The position numbers and the translations under genes are program-made. The notes under the pieces are model-generated. The model saw nothing but the letters and a program-made list of their open reading frames with translations. It did not search any database and was not told where the DNA came from. Positions 48,304 through 52,415 of a stretch of 64,000 nt of DNA are shown piece after piece. This DNA is from Clostridiaceae bacterium (GTDB lineage: Bacteria > Bacillota > Clostridia > Acetivibrionales > DUMB01), in contig DUMB01000040.1 of NCBI GenBank assembly GCA_012840085.1, forward strand, positions 124,001 through 188,000, written 5' to 3'. The first letter of the stretch is position 1. Each line of letters opens with the position of its first letter.

Positions 48304-51300
48304 ATTTGAAAATCCGTGGCTGCTGTTGTTGCTTTTGCCTGCAGCGGTATTTATGTATTATACAACAAGAAATATGGTTCGACTGGTGCGCTGGAGACGC
48401 ATTGCTATTGTTCTGCTCCGCAGCCTTGTATTCCTTATTGTCATATTGCTTATTTCGGGCTTTACACTGCAGCAGGTTTCAAACACAACTACTACTTTGT
48501 TTCTGATAGATTCATCTGACAGCATTAGTGATAAAGAGCAGGCTGCAGCCTTTGTCCGGGAAGCAATAAAAAACATGGGCAGAAATGACGAAGCAGGGGT
48601 TATTAATTTTGGAGGAAACTCCAGTATTGAATTGCTGCCGGATAATAATCCAATTTTTGATAAGGTGCAAACAAGAATCAACTCTTCTTTCACCAATGTG
48701 GAAAATGCATTGATAACCGCCCAGTCCATTATGCCGTGGGATCACATGAAAAGAGTGGTAATTTTAACAGATGGACGGGAAAATACCGGCAATGCCCTTG
48801 CTCAGGTCAAGCAAATGAAGACAAAGGGTTATTCGGTAGATGTTTACCCCATAAGCTCCAGCTTAAAAGAAGAAGTCCAGCTTCAGGAGTTAAATATTCC
48901 GAAATCGGTAAACTTGAATGAACAGTTCGAAATTTCGGTTAATATAAGGAGTAACGTTAATACCAGGGCTGTTCTTCAGTTATACAGTGACCGTACGTTG
49001 ACAGCCCAGAAGGAAGTTGAACTGAATAAGGGTGACAACAGATTTGCTTTTTTGGACATTGCCATAAACGGAGGGATGGTTACATACAGAGTTGAGGTAA
49101 TTGCAGATTCTGATACCTTTTCACAGAACAATGCACTTTCCTCTTATACATACGTTCAGGATATACCTGAAATTTTGATGGTTTCTGAATCGGAAGAAGC
49201 CGGTAGAGTACTTGCAGATATTCTTGAAGAAAATATGCATTTAACTGTAGTCAATCCTAAACAGGTACCGGCTGATCTTTCAGAAATGCTTAAATATGAC
49301 GCATTTATCCTGGTTAACGTTTCTGCCGACAGTCTCAGCAATGCATTTCTTGAAAATCTGAAAACGTCGGTAAGCCACCAGGGCAAAGGGCTCCTTGTTA
49401 CAGGGGGTGACAATAGTTATGGTCCGGGAGGATATTATCAAACTGCTCTGGAGGAAATTCTGCCTGTAAATATGGATATTAAGCCAAAAGAAGAAGAACC
49501 AAACCTTGCGCTTATGCTGGTAATTGACAAATCCGGAAGTATGTCCGAAGGGGATTTTGGAATATCAAAAATGGAACTGGCAAAGGAAGCAGCAATACGG
49601 GCAACAGAGGTTCTGGATCAGGATGATACAATTGGGGTTATTGCTTTTGACGATGCATATAAGTGGGTTGTTGAACCTCAAAAACTTGACAACTTACAGC
49701 GAATTCAGAATGCAATAGGCACAATTCGTTCGGGTGGCGGAACGCAGATTCTTCCACCTTTGGAAGCAGCCTACGAAGCGATAAAAAATGCTGATGCCGG
49801 ATTAAAGCATATAATTCTATTGACAGACGGTCAGGCGGAAAAGAGCGGTTACGAGCATTTAATAGAAGGATTGAGGGAAAATAAGATTACCCTTTCAACT
49901 GTTGCAGTAGGGCGTGGTGCGGATTTTCTCCTGATGAAGGCACTTGCCTACGGAGGCAATGGCAGATATTACGAAACAGATGAATTTACTGACATACCCA
50001 AGATATTTGCAAAGGAAGTTTTTCTTGCAGGTAAAAAATATCTGACTAACAGGACATTTACCCCGGGGCTTGCAGGTTCATCGGAGATTCTCAAAGGCAT
50101 CAAAGCAGTGCCTCAGCTGGATGGGTATGTAACAACTACTGCGAAAAAAACAGCTAATGTTGTGTTTGTGAGTGATGAAAATGACCCTGTTCTGGCATGC
50201 TGGCAGTACGGACTGGGAAGAACTGTTGCATGGACTCCTGATGTGCAAGGCATATGGACATATGACTGGATGAATTGGGAAGACTCTCCGAAGTTCTGGA
50301 GGAATGTTGTATCATGGATTGTCCAGCAGAATATGAGCAAAGGTTATGCAATAGAAACTGATATTGACGGACAGAATGGCTCCATAACCGTCAAAGCGGA
50401 AGATGATGCCTTTATGACTGCTAGTGACGTAAGGGGGACTCTCATAGCTCCTGATGGAACCAAGCAGGAAATAAAGCTGTTGCCGGGTGCACCGGGAGAA
50501 TACACGGGTACATTTACAGACCTGGAAAGTGGTGTCTATATTGCGGATATTATCCTGTCCGGCAGTGAAGGACAGAGTGAGCACATCAGTACAGGGCTGA
50601 TTATGCCTTATTCACCTGAATATGATTTGTTGTCAAATGAAAAATCAAACGACAATGATGCACTTCTTAAAAAAATAGTGTATGAAGGCGGGGGACGTAT
50701 ACTAAGTAATCCGGCTCAGGTATTTGAAAACGAATTGCCTCCTGTTACGGGAAAGATAGACCCAACGTATGCATTGATTATTGTCGTATTAGTTTTGTTC
50801 ATGCTGGATGTCATTATAAGACGTGTTAATTTTCATCCCGGTACATGGACAAAAAGGCTTGTTTCGATTGCTGATTCAGGTAAAGCTGTGATAGCCGGAA
50901 GTATTAATGGAATCGGAAGAATTACTAAAAGGATTACTAACAGAGATGGTAACGAAACAATAGATAGAGCTGCGGATAGAACTAAAGATGCGACTTTGGA
51001 TATAAACGAAAATAGACCTACAGATAGAATTTCAGATATAACTTCAAATAAAACCGCAGCTGGCACTGCAGATATAACTTCTGACAGAAATTCTATCAGA
51101 ACTTTAGTTAGACCAACGGATGGAACCAAAAAAAGAACTCCGGAAAAGACTTTAGATAGAGCTACAGGCAGAGCTACAGACATAAACCGCCAGACTACAA
51201 ATAAAGCTAAAAGCAGCAATATAAATGGAACTATTAATGCAAATGACAGGACTGAAATCAAAGTTAATAAAGATACTGTAAACACAAAAGATAATGCTGC

Positions 51301-51352
51301 ATCTTCTCACATTTCGCAGTTGCTGGATAAGAAGCGAAAGTGGAAGAGGTAA
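48293..51352 (+). CDS. Membrane protein with two VWA domains and an amidotransferase-like domain
   Basis: 1019 residues. Two N-terminal membrane helices (about 8-24 and 38-58) precede a first VWA domain with MIDAS D73-x-S75-x-S77. A beta domain and an amidotransferase-like segment follow (GKGLLVTGGDNSYGPGGYYQ near residue 365), then a second VWA domain with D412-x-S414-x-S416 (IDKSGSMS). More beta sequence and a membrane helix near residue 825 lead to a cytoplasmic tail of ~180 residues. The tail is unusual: repeats of a D-R-x-T-D-x-T type rich in Thr, Asp, Arg and Asn, ending in LLDKKRKWKR. It is the last gene of the moxR operon and is followed by a strong hairpin. Confidence 0.88.
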   Translation: MVFKFENPWLLLLLLPAAVFMYYTTRNMVRLVRWRRIAIVLLRSLVFLIVILLISGFTLQQVSNTTTTLFLIDSSDSISDKEQAAAFVREAIKNMGRNDEAGVINFGGNSSIELLPDNNPIFDKVQTRINSSFTNVENALITAQSIMPWDHMKRVVILTDGRENTGNALAQVKQMKTKGYSVDVYPISSSLKEEVQLQELNIPKSVNLNEQFEISVNIRSNVNTRAVLQLYSDRTLTAQKEVELNKGDNRFAFLDIAINGGMVTYRVEVIADSDTFSQNNALSSYTYVQDIPEILMVSESEEAGRVLADILEENMHLTVVNPKQVPADLSEMLKYDAFILVNVSADSLSNAFLENLKTSVSHQGKGLLVTGGDNSYGPGGYYQTALEEILPVNMDIKPKEEEPNLALMLVIDKSGSMSEGDFGISKMELAKEAAIRATEVLDQDDTIGVIAFDDAYKWVVEPQKLDNLQRIQNAIGTIRSGGGTQILPPLEAAYEAIKNADAGLKHIILLTDGQAEKSGYEHLIEGLRENKITLSTVAVGRGADFLLMKALAYGGNGRYYETDEFTDIPKIFAKEVFLAGKKYLTNRTFTPGLAGSSEILKGIKAVPQLDGYVTTTAKKTANVVFVSDENDPVLACWQYGLGRTVAWTPDVQGIWTYDWMNWEDSPKFWRNVVSWIVQQNMSKGYAIETDIDGQNGSITVKAEDDAFMTASDVRGTLIAPDGTKQEIKLLPGAPGEYTGTFTDLESGVYIADIILSGSEGQSEHISTGLIMPYSPEYDLLSNEKSNDNDALLKKIVYEGGGRILSNPAQVFENELPPVTGKIDPTYALIIVVLVLFMLDVIIRRVNFHPGTWTKRLVSIADSGKAVIAGSINGIGRITKRITNRDGNETIDRAADRTKDATLDINENRPTDRISDITSNKTAAGTADITSDRNSIRTLVRPTDGTKKRTPEKTLDRATGRATDINRQTTNKAKSSNINGTINANDRTEIKVNKDTVNTKDNAASSHISQLLDKKRKWKR

Positions 51353-51408: not shown

Positions 51409-51719
51409 TGTATATTGAAAAATTGATTTTATATTTTATATAGCAAACAAGTGATTGGTATTTATGTAATATAACGGTATTATATAAAAAGTATTACTGC
51501 TAATAATTGTATTGATTTAATCGAATTATTTTAGCAGTACTAGCAGAAACATTATGAATTCAAATACTTTAGTTCAAAACAATAAAGCATATGCAGGAAA
51601 TGTCAGAATAAACAATTCTTGAATTTTAGTTTATTAAACGGTAATGTTGATGAAATAAATCGACAATTTTATAGAAACATAGAAACTCTAATTCTATCAG
51701 AACAGATGTTCCTAAAATA
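51409..51719 (+). other. 311-base AT-rich gap
   Basis: I see no gene, repeat or promoter that I can support here; it is AT-rich sequence between the hairpin after the VWA operon and the promoter of the small peptide locus. Confidence 0.6.
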
Positions 51720-51748
51720 TTGTAAACTAATACGATTTGTTATATAAT
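51720..51748 (+). promoter_or_regulatory. Promoter of the small-peptide locus
   Basis: TTGTAA (51720-51725) and a perfect TATAAT (51743-51748) with 17-base spacing. The expected start near 51755 gives a leader of about 125 bases. Confidence 0.7.
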
Positions 51749-51776
51749 GGATAAGTGATAAGTGATCAGGTTTAAT

Positions 51777-51842
51777 ATGAGTAATATGTCTCTGAAGGTT
51801 CCTTCCCAAAGATTCCCACTCATGAGGATGGAGACGTTATAG
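51777..51842 (+). CDS. Possible 21-residue leader ORF
   Basis: ATG 51777 opens a 21-codon frame ending with TAG at 51840-51842; the peptide is basic (MSNMSLKVPSQRFPLMRMET and a final Leu). Its ribosome site is weak (CAGG, 6 bases upstream). The frame runs exactly through the left arms of the leader stem (51801-51817), so a translating ribosome would melt that stem. This is inference from layout only. Confidence 0.4.
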   Translation: MSNMSLKVPSQRFPLMRMETL

Positions 51843-51869
51843 TTGCTGCAGGGAATCTGCAAAGGAAGG
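51801..51869 (+). promoter_or_regulatory. Leader stem that can hide the Shine-Dalgarno of the 57-residue peptide gene
   Basis: CCTTCC (51801-51806) pairs with GGAAGG (51864-51869), and GATTCCC (51811-51817) pairs with GGGAATC (51851-51857). The GGAAGG arm is part of the GGAAGGGGGTGAT ribosome site of the downstream ORF. The two stems are nested and nearly collinear (internal loop of 4 and 6 bases). Confidence 0.6.
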
Positions 51870-51880
51870 GGGTGATCGAT

Positions 51881-52054
51881 ATGAATACCGATTTCTACAC
51901 AAACATCGGCTTAGCTGTTGTGTGGTGCATGGAATCCATATTCATACCAGTTGGGGTAGCGGTTTCTGCAAGAATTATTATTGCGGAAAAGTTACTTCGG
52001 TCACAGCCTAAAAGACAAAGAAAAAAACGATCTAAAAAACCGTTAAAATTATAG
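51881..52054 (+). CDS. 57-residue hydrophobic peptide with basic tail (possible type I toxin or regulated membrane peptide)
   Basis: The peptide has a polar start (MNTDFYTNIG), a membrane-length hydrophobic stretch (about residues 9-38, interrupted by few charges) and a strongly basic tail (RSQPKRQRKKRSKKPLK). ATG 51881 follows a very strong GGAAGGGGGTGAT site; a GTG at 51872 is inside that site. The size, hydrophobic-plus-basic layout, a leader that can hide the ribosome site and a convergent antisense promoter are all features of type I toxin genes such as txpA and bsrG, but I see no sequence match to those toxins. It could also be a small membrane regulator. Confidence 0.6.
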   Translation: MNTDFYTNIGLAVVWCMESIFIPVGVAVSARIIIAEKLLRSQPKRQRKKRSKKPLKL

Positions 52055-52130
52055 CGCTCATTATTAAACCTGACAGCAACAAGCGTTGCCTTCCTTATCT
52101 ATATTATAGCACAATTGAGAGTGAAGTAAA
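52020..52130 (-). ncRNA. Candidate antisense RNA overlapping the 3' end of the small peptide gene
   Basis: On the minus strand an extended promoter is present: TTTACT (52130-52125), 16 bases, TGCTATAAT with TATAAT at 52108-52103. The predicted start is near 52096. The transcript would contain the hairpin GCAAC-GCTT-GTTGC (52089-52076), cross the last ~35 bases of the ORF and could stop at a T-rich stretch near 52030-52018 that follows a weak 4-bp stem. The promoter is strong on paper; the RNA end is a guess. Confidence 0.5.
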
Positions 52131-52214
52131 CCACAAATTTGAGATAAAAAAGCTTTAAAAACAGTATTATAAAATAATTATTATAATATTATAATTTGAA
52201 AGGATATGTTGGTA

Positions 52215-52415
52215 ATGGATAAATGGGAATACAAAACTATTGAATTTAAAACTAAAGGATTTGTAGGAGGGCTGCTTGACATAAGTGCCTTTAACGAAGC
52301 GTTAAATAATTGCGGCAGAGATGGATGGGAGTTAGTTAGCTGTTTTGATACAAATCAATCATATGGCGCAAGCAGAAAAGTTATAGCTGTCTTTAAAAGA
52401 CAGAAGCCGGTTTAA
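52215..52415 (+). CDS. DUF4177 small protein
   Basis: 66 residues. It matches DUF4177: WEYKTIEFKTKGF at the start, LNNCGRDGWELVSCFDTN in the middle and VIAVFKRQ at the end. These are small cytoplasmic beta-rich proteins of unknown function. I choose ATG 52215, about 10 bases after GAAAGGA; ATG 52206 is too close to that site. Confidence 0.85.
   Translation: MDKWEYKTIEFKTKGFVGGLLDISAFNEALNNCGRDGWELVSCFDTNQSYGASRKVIAVFKRQKPV

Follow-up and report, generated by a model that had tools for sequence, protein, structure and literature searches.

A predicted LexA-controlled type I toxin-antitoxin cassette encoding a small hydrophobic-basic peptide in Clostridia

Within the window, a stretch of 64,000 nucleotides from a Clostridiaceae bacterium, a cassette of about 430 bp most likely directs the synthesis of a small membrane-damaging peptide upon DNA damage, restrained by an antisense RNA. 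We consider it probable, with some room for doubt, that this cassette is a type I toxin-antitoxin module under the control of LexA. Its logic is best read as resembling TisB/IstR and its layout as resembling TxpA/Bsr or the Fst par locus. Our reading draws on a LexA box shared by the copies and by lexA and recA, on the conservation of the cassette as a unit at mostly unrelated loci, on purifying selection on the peptide, on an antisense gene with promoter, hairpin and terminator that persists at loci without an intact toxin, on a leader stem together with a complementarity between both mRNA ends, and on Hol_Tox cassettes of relatives that share the layout and this complementarity. An earlier note on this DNA had pointed out hallmarks of type I modules, a claim now supported by joint conservation of the elements, selection on the peptide and the antisense gene. 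It contained neither the LexA box nor the terminator inside the Lys/Arg tail nor the 5′/3′ complementarity, and all three are added here. The predicted LexA operator, overlooked there, is the main regulatory feature of the cassette.

Table 1. Features of the cassette, in window coordinates
Feature	Position	Strand	Basis or remark
Predicted LexA (DinR-type) SOS box GAACAGATGTTC	51700-51711		Centre about –50, span about –55 to –44
Sigma-A type toxin promoter, TTGTAA-17-TATAAT	51720-51748	+	Promoter scan; conserved in homologues
Untranslated toxin mRNA leader, 126 nt	~51755-51880	+	Start approximate, placed from the –10 position
Module B, TCAGGTTTAATATGAG	51766-51781	+	Complementary to 52057-52073; co-varies with B′
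Leader stem-loop burying the Shine-Dalgarno	51799-51871	+	RNAalifold, 22 pairs
Outer stem arms TTCCTTCC / GGAAGGGG	51799-51806 / 51864-51871	+	
Inner stem arms GATTCCC / GGGAATC	51811-51817 / 51851-51857	+	
Apical module A, GGATGG-GACGTTATAGTTGCTG	51821-51852	+	Complementary to A′ (52069-52094)
Shine-Dalgarno GGAAGGGGGTGA	51864-51875	+	Sequence; conserved
Hydrophobic-basic 57-aa peptide, predicted type I toxin	51881-52054 (57 codons 51881-52051 + TAG)	+	
Predicted antisense RNA gene, ~76 nt (5′ hairpin, module B, terminator)	52020-52095	-	Alignment and covariance model
Antisense RNA terminator hairpin	52026-52044; U-run over 52020-52027	-	Stem and U-run conserved, 16 sequences
Module B′, after the stop codon	52057-52073	+	Complementarity to B
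Antisense promoter, TTTACT-16-TGcTATAAT	52103-52130	-	TTT.C and TGnTATAAT in 16/16 aligned copies

A conserved unit and its 57-residue peptide

Twelve other copies from Clostridia align with the cassette across its whole span and similarity is gone beyond it, which marks the ∼430 bp as a real unit. In a DNA alignment of the 13 loci, similarity extends from a palindrome upstream of the promoter to the –35 element of the antisense promoter, and the flanks are mostly unrelated. In the homologues, the promoter is accompanied by both the leader stem and the antisense promoter, a joint conservation that the earlier note had proposed to look for. Peptide homologues were found in 8 of the 30 sampled genera of the host order, in one additional family within the class and in “Clostridiaceae” MAGs. 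A phage or plasmid origin was rejected, with zero matches in phages, plasmids and IMG/VR, and a search of Rfam assigned no RNA family to the cassette. The copies C76 and G001 have matching gene neighborhoods, so that inheritance looks vertical there.

The peptide has the sequence MNTDFYTNIGLAVVWCMESIFIPVGVAVSARIIIAEKLLRSQPKRQRKKRSKKPLKL. Codons 2-38 show a pN/pS of 0.41, with pN below pS in 66 of 66 pairs, compared to 0.98 and 1.05 in the other two frames, and the open reading frame is therefore real and under purifying selection. This bears out the 57-residue membrane-like peptide with a Lys/Arg tail described earlier, which is not part of a longer gene in relatives. A small hydrophobic peptide with a charged C-terminus and coding selection is a feature of type I modules. 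An AlphaFold2 model predicts a single helix for residues 3-39 (mean pLDDT 72). For none of the 13 family members did Pfam, NCBIfam or PHROG give a match that was significant or reached a cut-off, and comparison with PDB profiles gave no significant match for the peptide. The suggestion of an undescribed family thus stands within these three family libraries.

Individual copies and their surroundings deserve mention. The contig that holds the window (C28 of G000, 205650 bp, centre L093) is an inverted duplication whose central 10 kb equal their own reverse complement, with the cassette at exact mirror positions, and is probably an assembly artefact. A second identical genome copy was rejected: since C28 is a perfect palindrome, its two identical cassettes count as one. 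At L020 (G017 C12), an insertion of ∼100 bp separates the LexA promoter from the leader of a full cassette and possibly uncouples it from SOS control. At L014 (G030), an unrelated reading frame replaces the 5′ part with a junction exactly at the toxin ATG, reflecting either a chimera on this short contig or recombination. Repeats of ∼90-175 nt lie near the cassette in three MAGs (L024, 210-297 and 1424-1511; L025, 6-179 and 815-988; L026, 912-1063 and 2893-3044); they have no match in Rfam and may represent a mobile element or one of a cassette array. At window positions 50900-51349, the VWA-domain protein encoded upstream of the cassette has a long hydrophilic C-terminal tail rich in D/R/T/N repeats (RAADRTKD..., RATGRATD...), and a small DUF4177 (PF13783) protein is encoded immediately past the antisense promoter (52206-52415).

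LexA box, leader and antisense gene

A motif GAAC-N4-GTTY or AAAC-N4-GTTC is located 6-9 bp upstream of the –35 element in 16 of the 16 copies that have their 5′ end (G416 was judged by eye). In the genome of the window, the lexA promoter (CGAACATTTGTTTG) and the recA promoter (GAACAAACGTTC) carry the motif as well. Taken together, these occurrences make LexA control of the cassette promoter well supported at the level of sequence. The B. subtilis LexA motif is GAACN4GTTC, and motifs used for searches in C. difficile include GAACnnnnGTTT/C (PMC4234289). Simple repression does not usually involve a box centred near –50, and because the box lies upstream of the –35 element without covering it, repression could be partial.

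Promoter-like sites number 9, compared to 7.8 in shuffled sequences, so the sense and convergent promoters alone do not exceed chance; it is their recurrence at the same position in homologues from many genera that lifts both above it. In this way, the TTGTAA-N17-TATAAT promoter and the convergent promoter on the opposite strand (52130-52103), both proposed earlier, are confirmed.

The leader of ∼125 bases had been credited with arms able to bury the Shine-Dalgarno sequence. These arms are present, and RNAalifold recovered from 13 leaders a two-part stem that buries the Shine-Dalgarno, topped by an apical hairpin. Across the 13 sequences, 94.7% of the cells pair compared to 42-60% when the stem is slid. 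Six cells changed on both sides, a number reached in 5 of 500 shuffles, and at the column pair 18-65 the combinations GC, UA and AU all occur. The covariance check proposed for the stem thus gives a signal that is real but modest, as many columns hardly vary. The leader ORF announced in the title of the earlier note has to be given up, as neither its start codons nor its frame are conserved. We also rejected an N-terminal extension of the toxin in frame through the leader, which meets stops in G015 and G017b and indels in G041a and G009.

The predicted antisense RNA, complementary to the toxin mRNA, is a further type I feature, read here from conserved promoter, hairpin and terminator sequences. 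Sixteen sequences have in common a nine-pair 5′ hairpin, then a module that varies, and finally a terminator stem with a U-run behind it. The G.U pairs of the 5′ hairpin correspond to A.C mismatches on the sense strand, and the terminator hairpin is weaker in the sense direction, where the U-run is weak. This terminator is embedded in the codons of the toxin Lys/Arg tail, in which synonymous divergence drops to 0.25 from 0.58, pointing to a double constraint. An intact antisense gene accompanies each toxin copy that is complete on its contig, and the reverse situation, a toxin lacking it, was never seen. Conversely, six antisense loci have no intact toxin: C76b of this genome, G003, G416, G332, G348 (retaining only the 3′ part of the toxin ORF) and G031. 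A covariance model of the antisense gene finds the known loci as well as the toxin-less G003, G031 and G332. Loss of the toxin before the antitoxin is the pattern that a toxin-antitoxin module predicts. It is a rather remote conjecture that the toxin-less cassettes with LexA promoter and antisense gene (C76b, G003 and G416) form a functional class of their own, as SOS-induced sponges of antitoxin RNA or as stand-alone antitoxins against incoming full cassettes.

The leader is complementary to the 3′ region of the same mRNA through two module pairs. Cognate B/B′ pairing reaches –19.8 kcal/mol compared to –15.7 for non-cognate pairs (0 of 20000 permutations), and A/A′ pairing –44.1 compared to –40.5 kcal/mol (0 of 5000); shared ancestry inflates these permutation counts, but ancestry alone should not create a cognate preference. 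The modules follow the order B-A-ORF-B′-A′, so that both pairings cannot nest, and the antisense RNA carries leader sequence in its A′/B′ region, which makes mimicry or quasipalindrome correction possible. The complementarity might hence have arisen incidentally, through template switching at inverted repeats that match imperfectly, or be a likeness of antisense RNA and leader for a shared partner, instead of end-to-end closure of the mRNA. We regard this as a possible but tentative reading: the crossing of the pairings and the repeated leader sequence fit it, whereas in several copies B/B′ pairing closes the full-length fold, and unrelated cassettes also show strong 5′/3′ complementarity. The latter came up as weak model matches in relatives, four of which proved to be Hol_Tox cassettes (matching PF16935 with E down to 3e-13) of the same layout. 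In the three tested, 5′/3′ complementarity is even stronger (z –6 to –8), an argument that its regulatory role is a general one. Direct pairing between the leader and the antisense hairpin was rejected, as the duplex of leader and antisense RNA shows no cognate preference.

In the Hol_Tox cassettes L080, L082, L084 and L088 (G021, G036, G027, G029), the 5′ part of the antisense RNA resembles the mRNA leader. Their upstream sequence, inspected by eye, revealed no LexA box. A further locus, L081 (G029 C38), encodes an unclassified 48-aa peptide (MSFLPLLELASRIISISAGVLTLYIGIRKFIKAGKSKTKRNASNDVPK; no Pfam match) and has an antisense promoter in convergent orientation as well as a terminator.

Comparison with known systems and competing explanations

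Known type I toxins of the SOS response are tisB, dinQ and symE (PMC6562991, PMC8309996); in the freely accessible reviews covered (PMC6562991, PMC6563280, PMC8309996), the SOS-controlled cases are all from E. coli. TisB/IstR-1, DinQ/AgrB and SymE/SymR have LexA-controlled promoters, and TisB and DinQ are small transmembrane peptides, as predicted for the cassette. The tisB mRNA also combines a translation-blocking leader structure with a constitutive RNA antitoxin (PMC8309996), to which we liken the cassette. Unlike the E. coli modules, the cassette has a Gram-positive GAAC-N4-GTTC operator and an unrelated peptide, and whereas IstR-1 binds a standby site, its predicted antisense RNA runs towards the mRNA and overlaps it at the 3′ end.

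Such an overlap, with a strong or buried ribosome-binding site, is found in TxpA/RatA, BsrG/SR4, BsrE/SR5 and YonT/SR6, and B. subtilis antitoxins acting at the 3′ end involve decay by RNase III (PMC6562991). The Hol_Tox loci of the same order have the same gene layout as the cassette. The cassette differs in its LexA box, not seen in those Hol_Tox loci, and in a peptide with a long Lys/Arg tail, which is not matched by the Hol_Tox/TxpA model PF16935 although control peptides from relatives are. C. difficile modules such as CD2517.1-RCd8 encode toxins of 50-53 aa with a hydrophobic N-terminus, a Lys-rich C-terminus and a convergent antitoxin (PMC6563280). They resemble the cassette in host class, toxin size and charge pattern and antitoxin orientation, a likeness read from their published description; by contrast, neither “LexA” nor “SOS” is mentioned for them in PMC7699646.

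In the par locus, the two RNAs converge on one bidirectional terminator that they share; direct repeats, a stem hiding the Shine-Dalgarno, a Trp signature and a PXXXG motif complete its description (PMC7472228). The cassette shares the convergent RNAs, a terminator in the overlap, the stem and a PxxV motif. P23 and V26 are invariant among the 13 aligned sequences; G27 occurs in only 3 of 13, and the window has A27. The cassette could be a par locus that acquired a LexA operator, an idea that we hold to be doubtful; it concerns ancestry and is compatible with the toxin-antitoxin reading. In its favor, P-x-x-V-[G/A] stands in the same register, more family members touch Fst than any other NCBIfam model, and an HHalign profile comparison with 15 Fst peptides scored above 99 of 100 column shuffles. 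However, the probability in this comparison is 16%, NF033608 (Fst) stayed short of its curated cut-off (best E 0.057; 3 of 13 members) and Pfam gave no Fst match. Moreover, the 13 aligned sequences lack a Trp between helix and charged tail, the cassette has inverted repeats where par has direct DRa/DRb repeats through which mRNA and antisense RNA pair at the start site, and leader and antisense RNA pair without cognate preference. Kinship to Fst thus appears faint, and we do not file the peptide as Fst. The earlier statement that it does not resemble TxpA, BsrG or Fst partly fails for Fst, given the weak PxxV[G/A] resemblance.

The LexA box, the single helix with a basic tail and the chromosomal location would also suit an SOS-induced small membrane regulator, for example a division inhibitor like SosA/YneA or SidA, whose level the antisense RNA only tunes, with no role in addiction or dormancy. 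This is unlikely: such inhibitors are not known to come with an antisense antitoxin and a buried ribosome site, and patchy presence and decay of the toxin with the antisense gene kept are toxin-antitoxin-like. Multiple copies at mostly unrelated loci and internally deleted derivatives retaining both ends might also suggest a MITE-like mobile element with promoters at its ends by chance. This is highly improbable, as the promoters contain the inverted repeats, purifying selection acts on the ORF and the C76 and G001 copies appear vertically inherited. Against the toxin-antitoxin reading itself we count the position of the LexA box, the strongly buried ribosome site, which makes translation of the toxin hard to explain, the lack of a match to any toxin model, and five genomes (G003, G332, G416, G348 and G031) with the antisense gene alone and no full cassette detected.

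Proposed regulation and significance

For the toxin-antitoxin module, we propose that in undamaged cells LexA bound at its box would limit transcription of the toxin. Any leaked mRNA would be paired at its 3′ part by an antisense RNA of ∼76 nt, made constitutively, and so become exposed to RNase III. At the same time, the leader stem would hide the Shine-Dalgarno and the 5′ end of the mRNA would fold back onto its 3′ end. Upon DNA damage, LexA would be cleaved, mRNA would exceed antisense RNA, and the peptide would be made, presumably after opening of the ribosome site. It may then insert into the membrane, where a single helix would span the bilayer and carry a basic tail, causing membrane depolarisation or growth arrest.

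In E. coli, the textbook way in which DNA damage leads to dormancy is the triggering of a type I toxin by the SOS response, as with TisB, and damage-triggered pairs of toxin and antisense RNA have so far been known mainly from this organism. What we rate as new is the combination of a new peptide family, a predicted Gram-positive LexA operator and a putative convergent antisense RNA. If our reading is true, the wiring of the SOS response to a type I toxin would have arisen independently in Firmicutes, where the clostridial module combines a convergent antisense RNA with a peptide unrelated to the E. coli toxins. The family supplies natural toxin-less derivatives as well as a natural co-variation experiment on 5′/3′ mRNA pairing.
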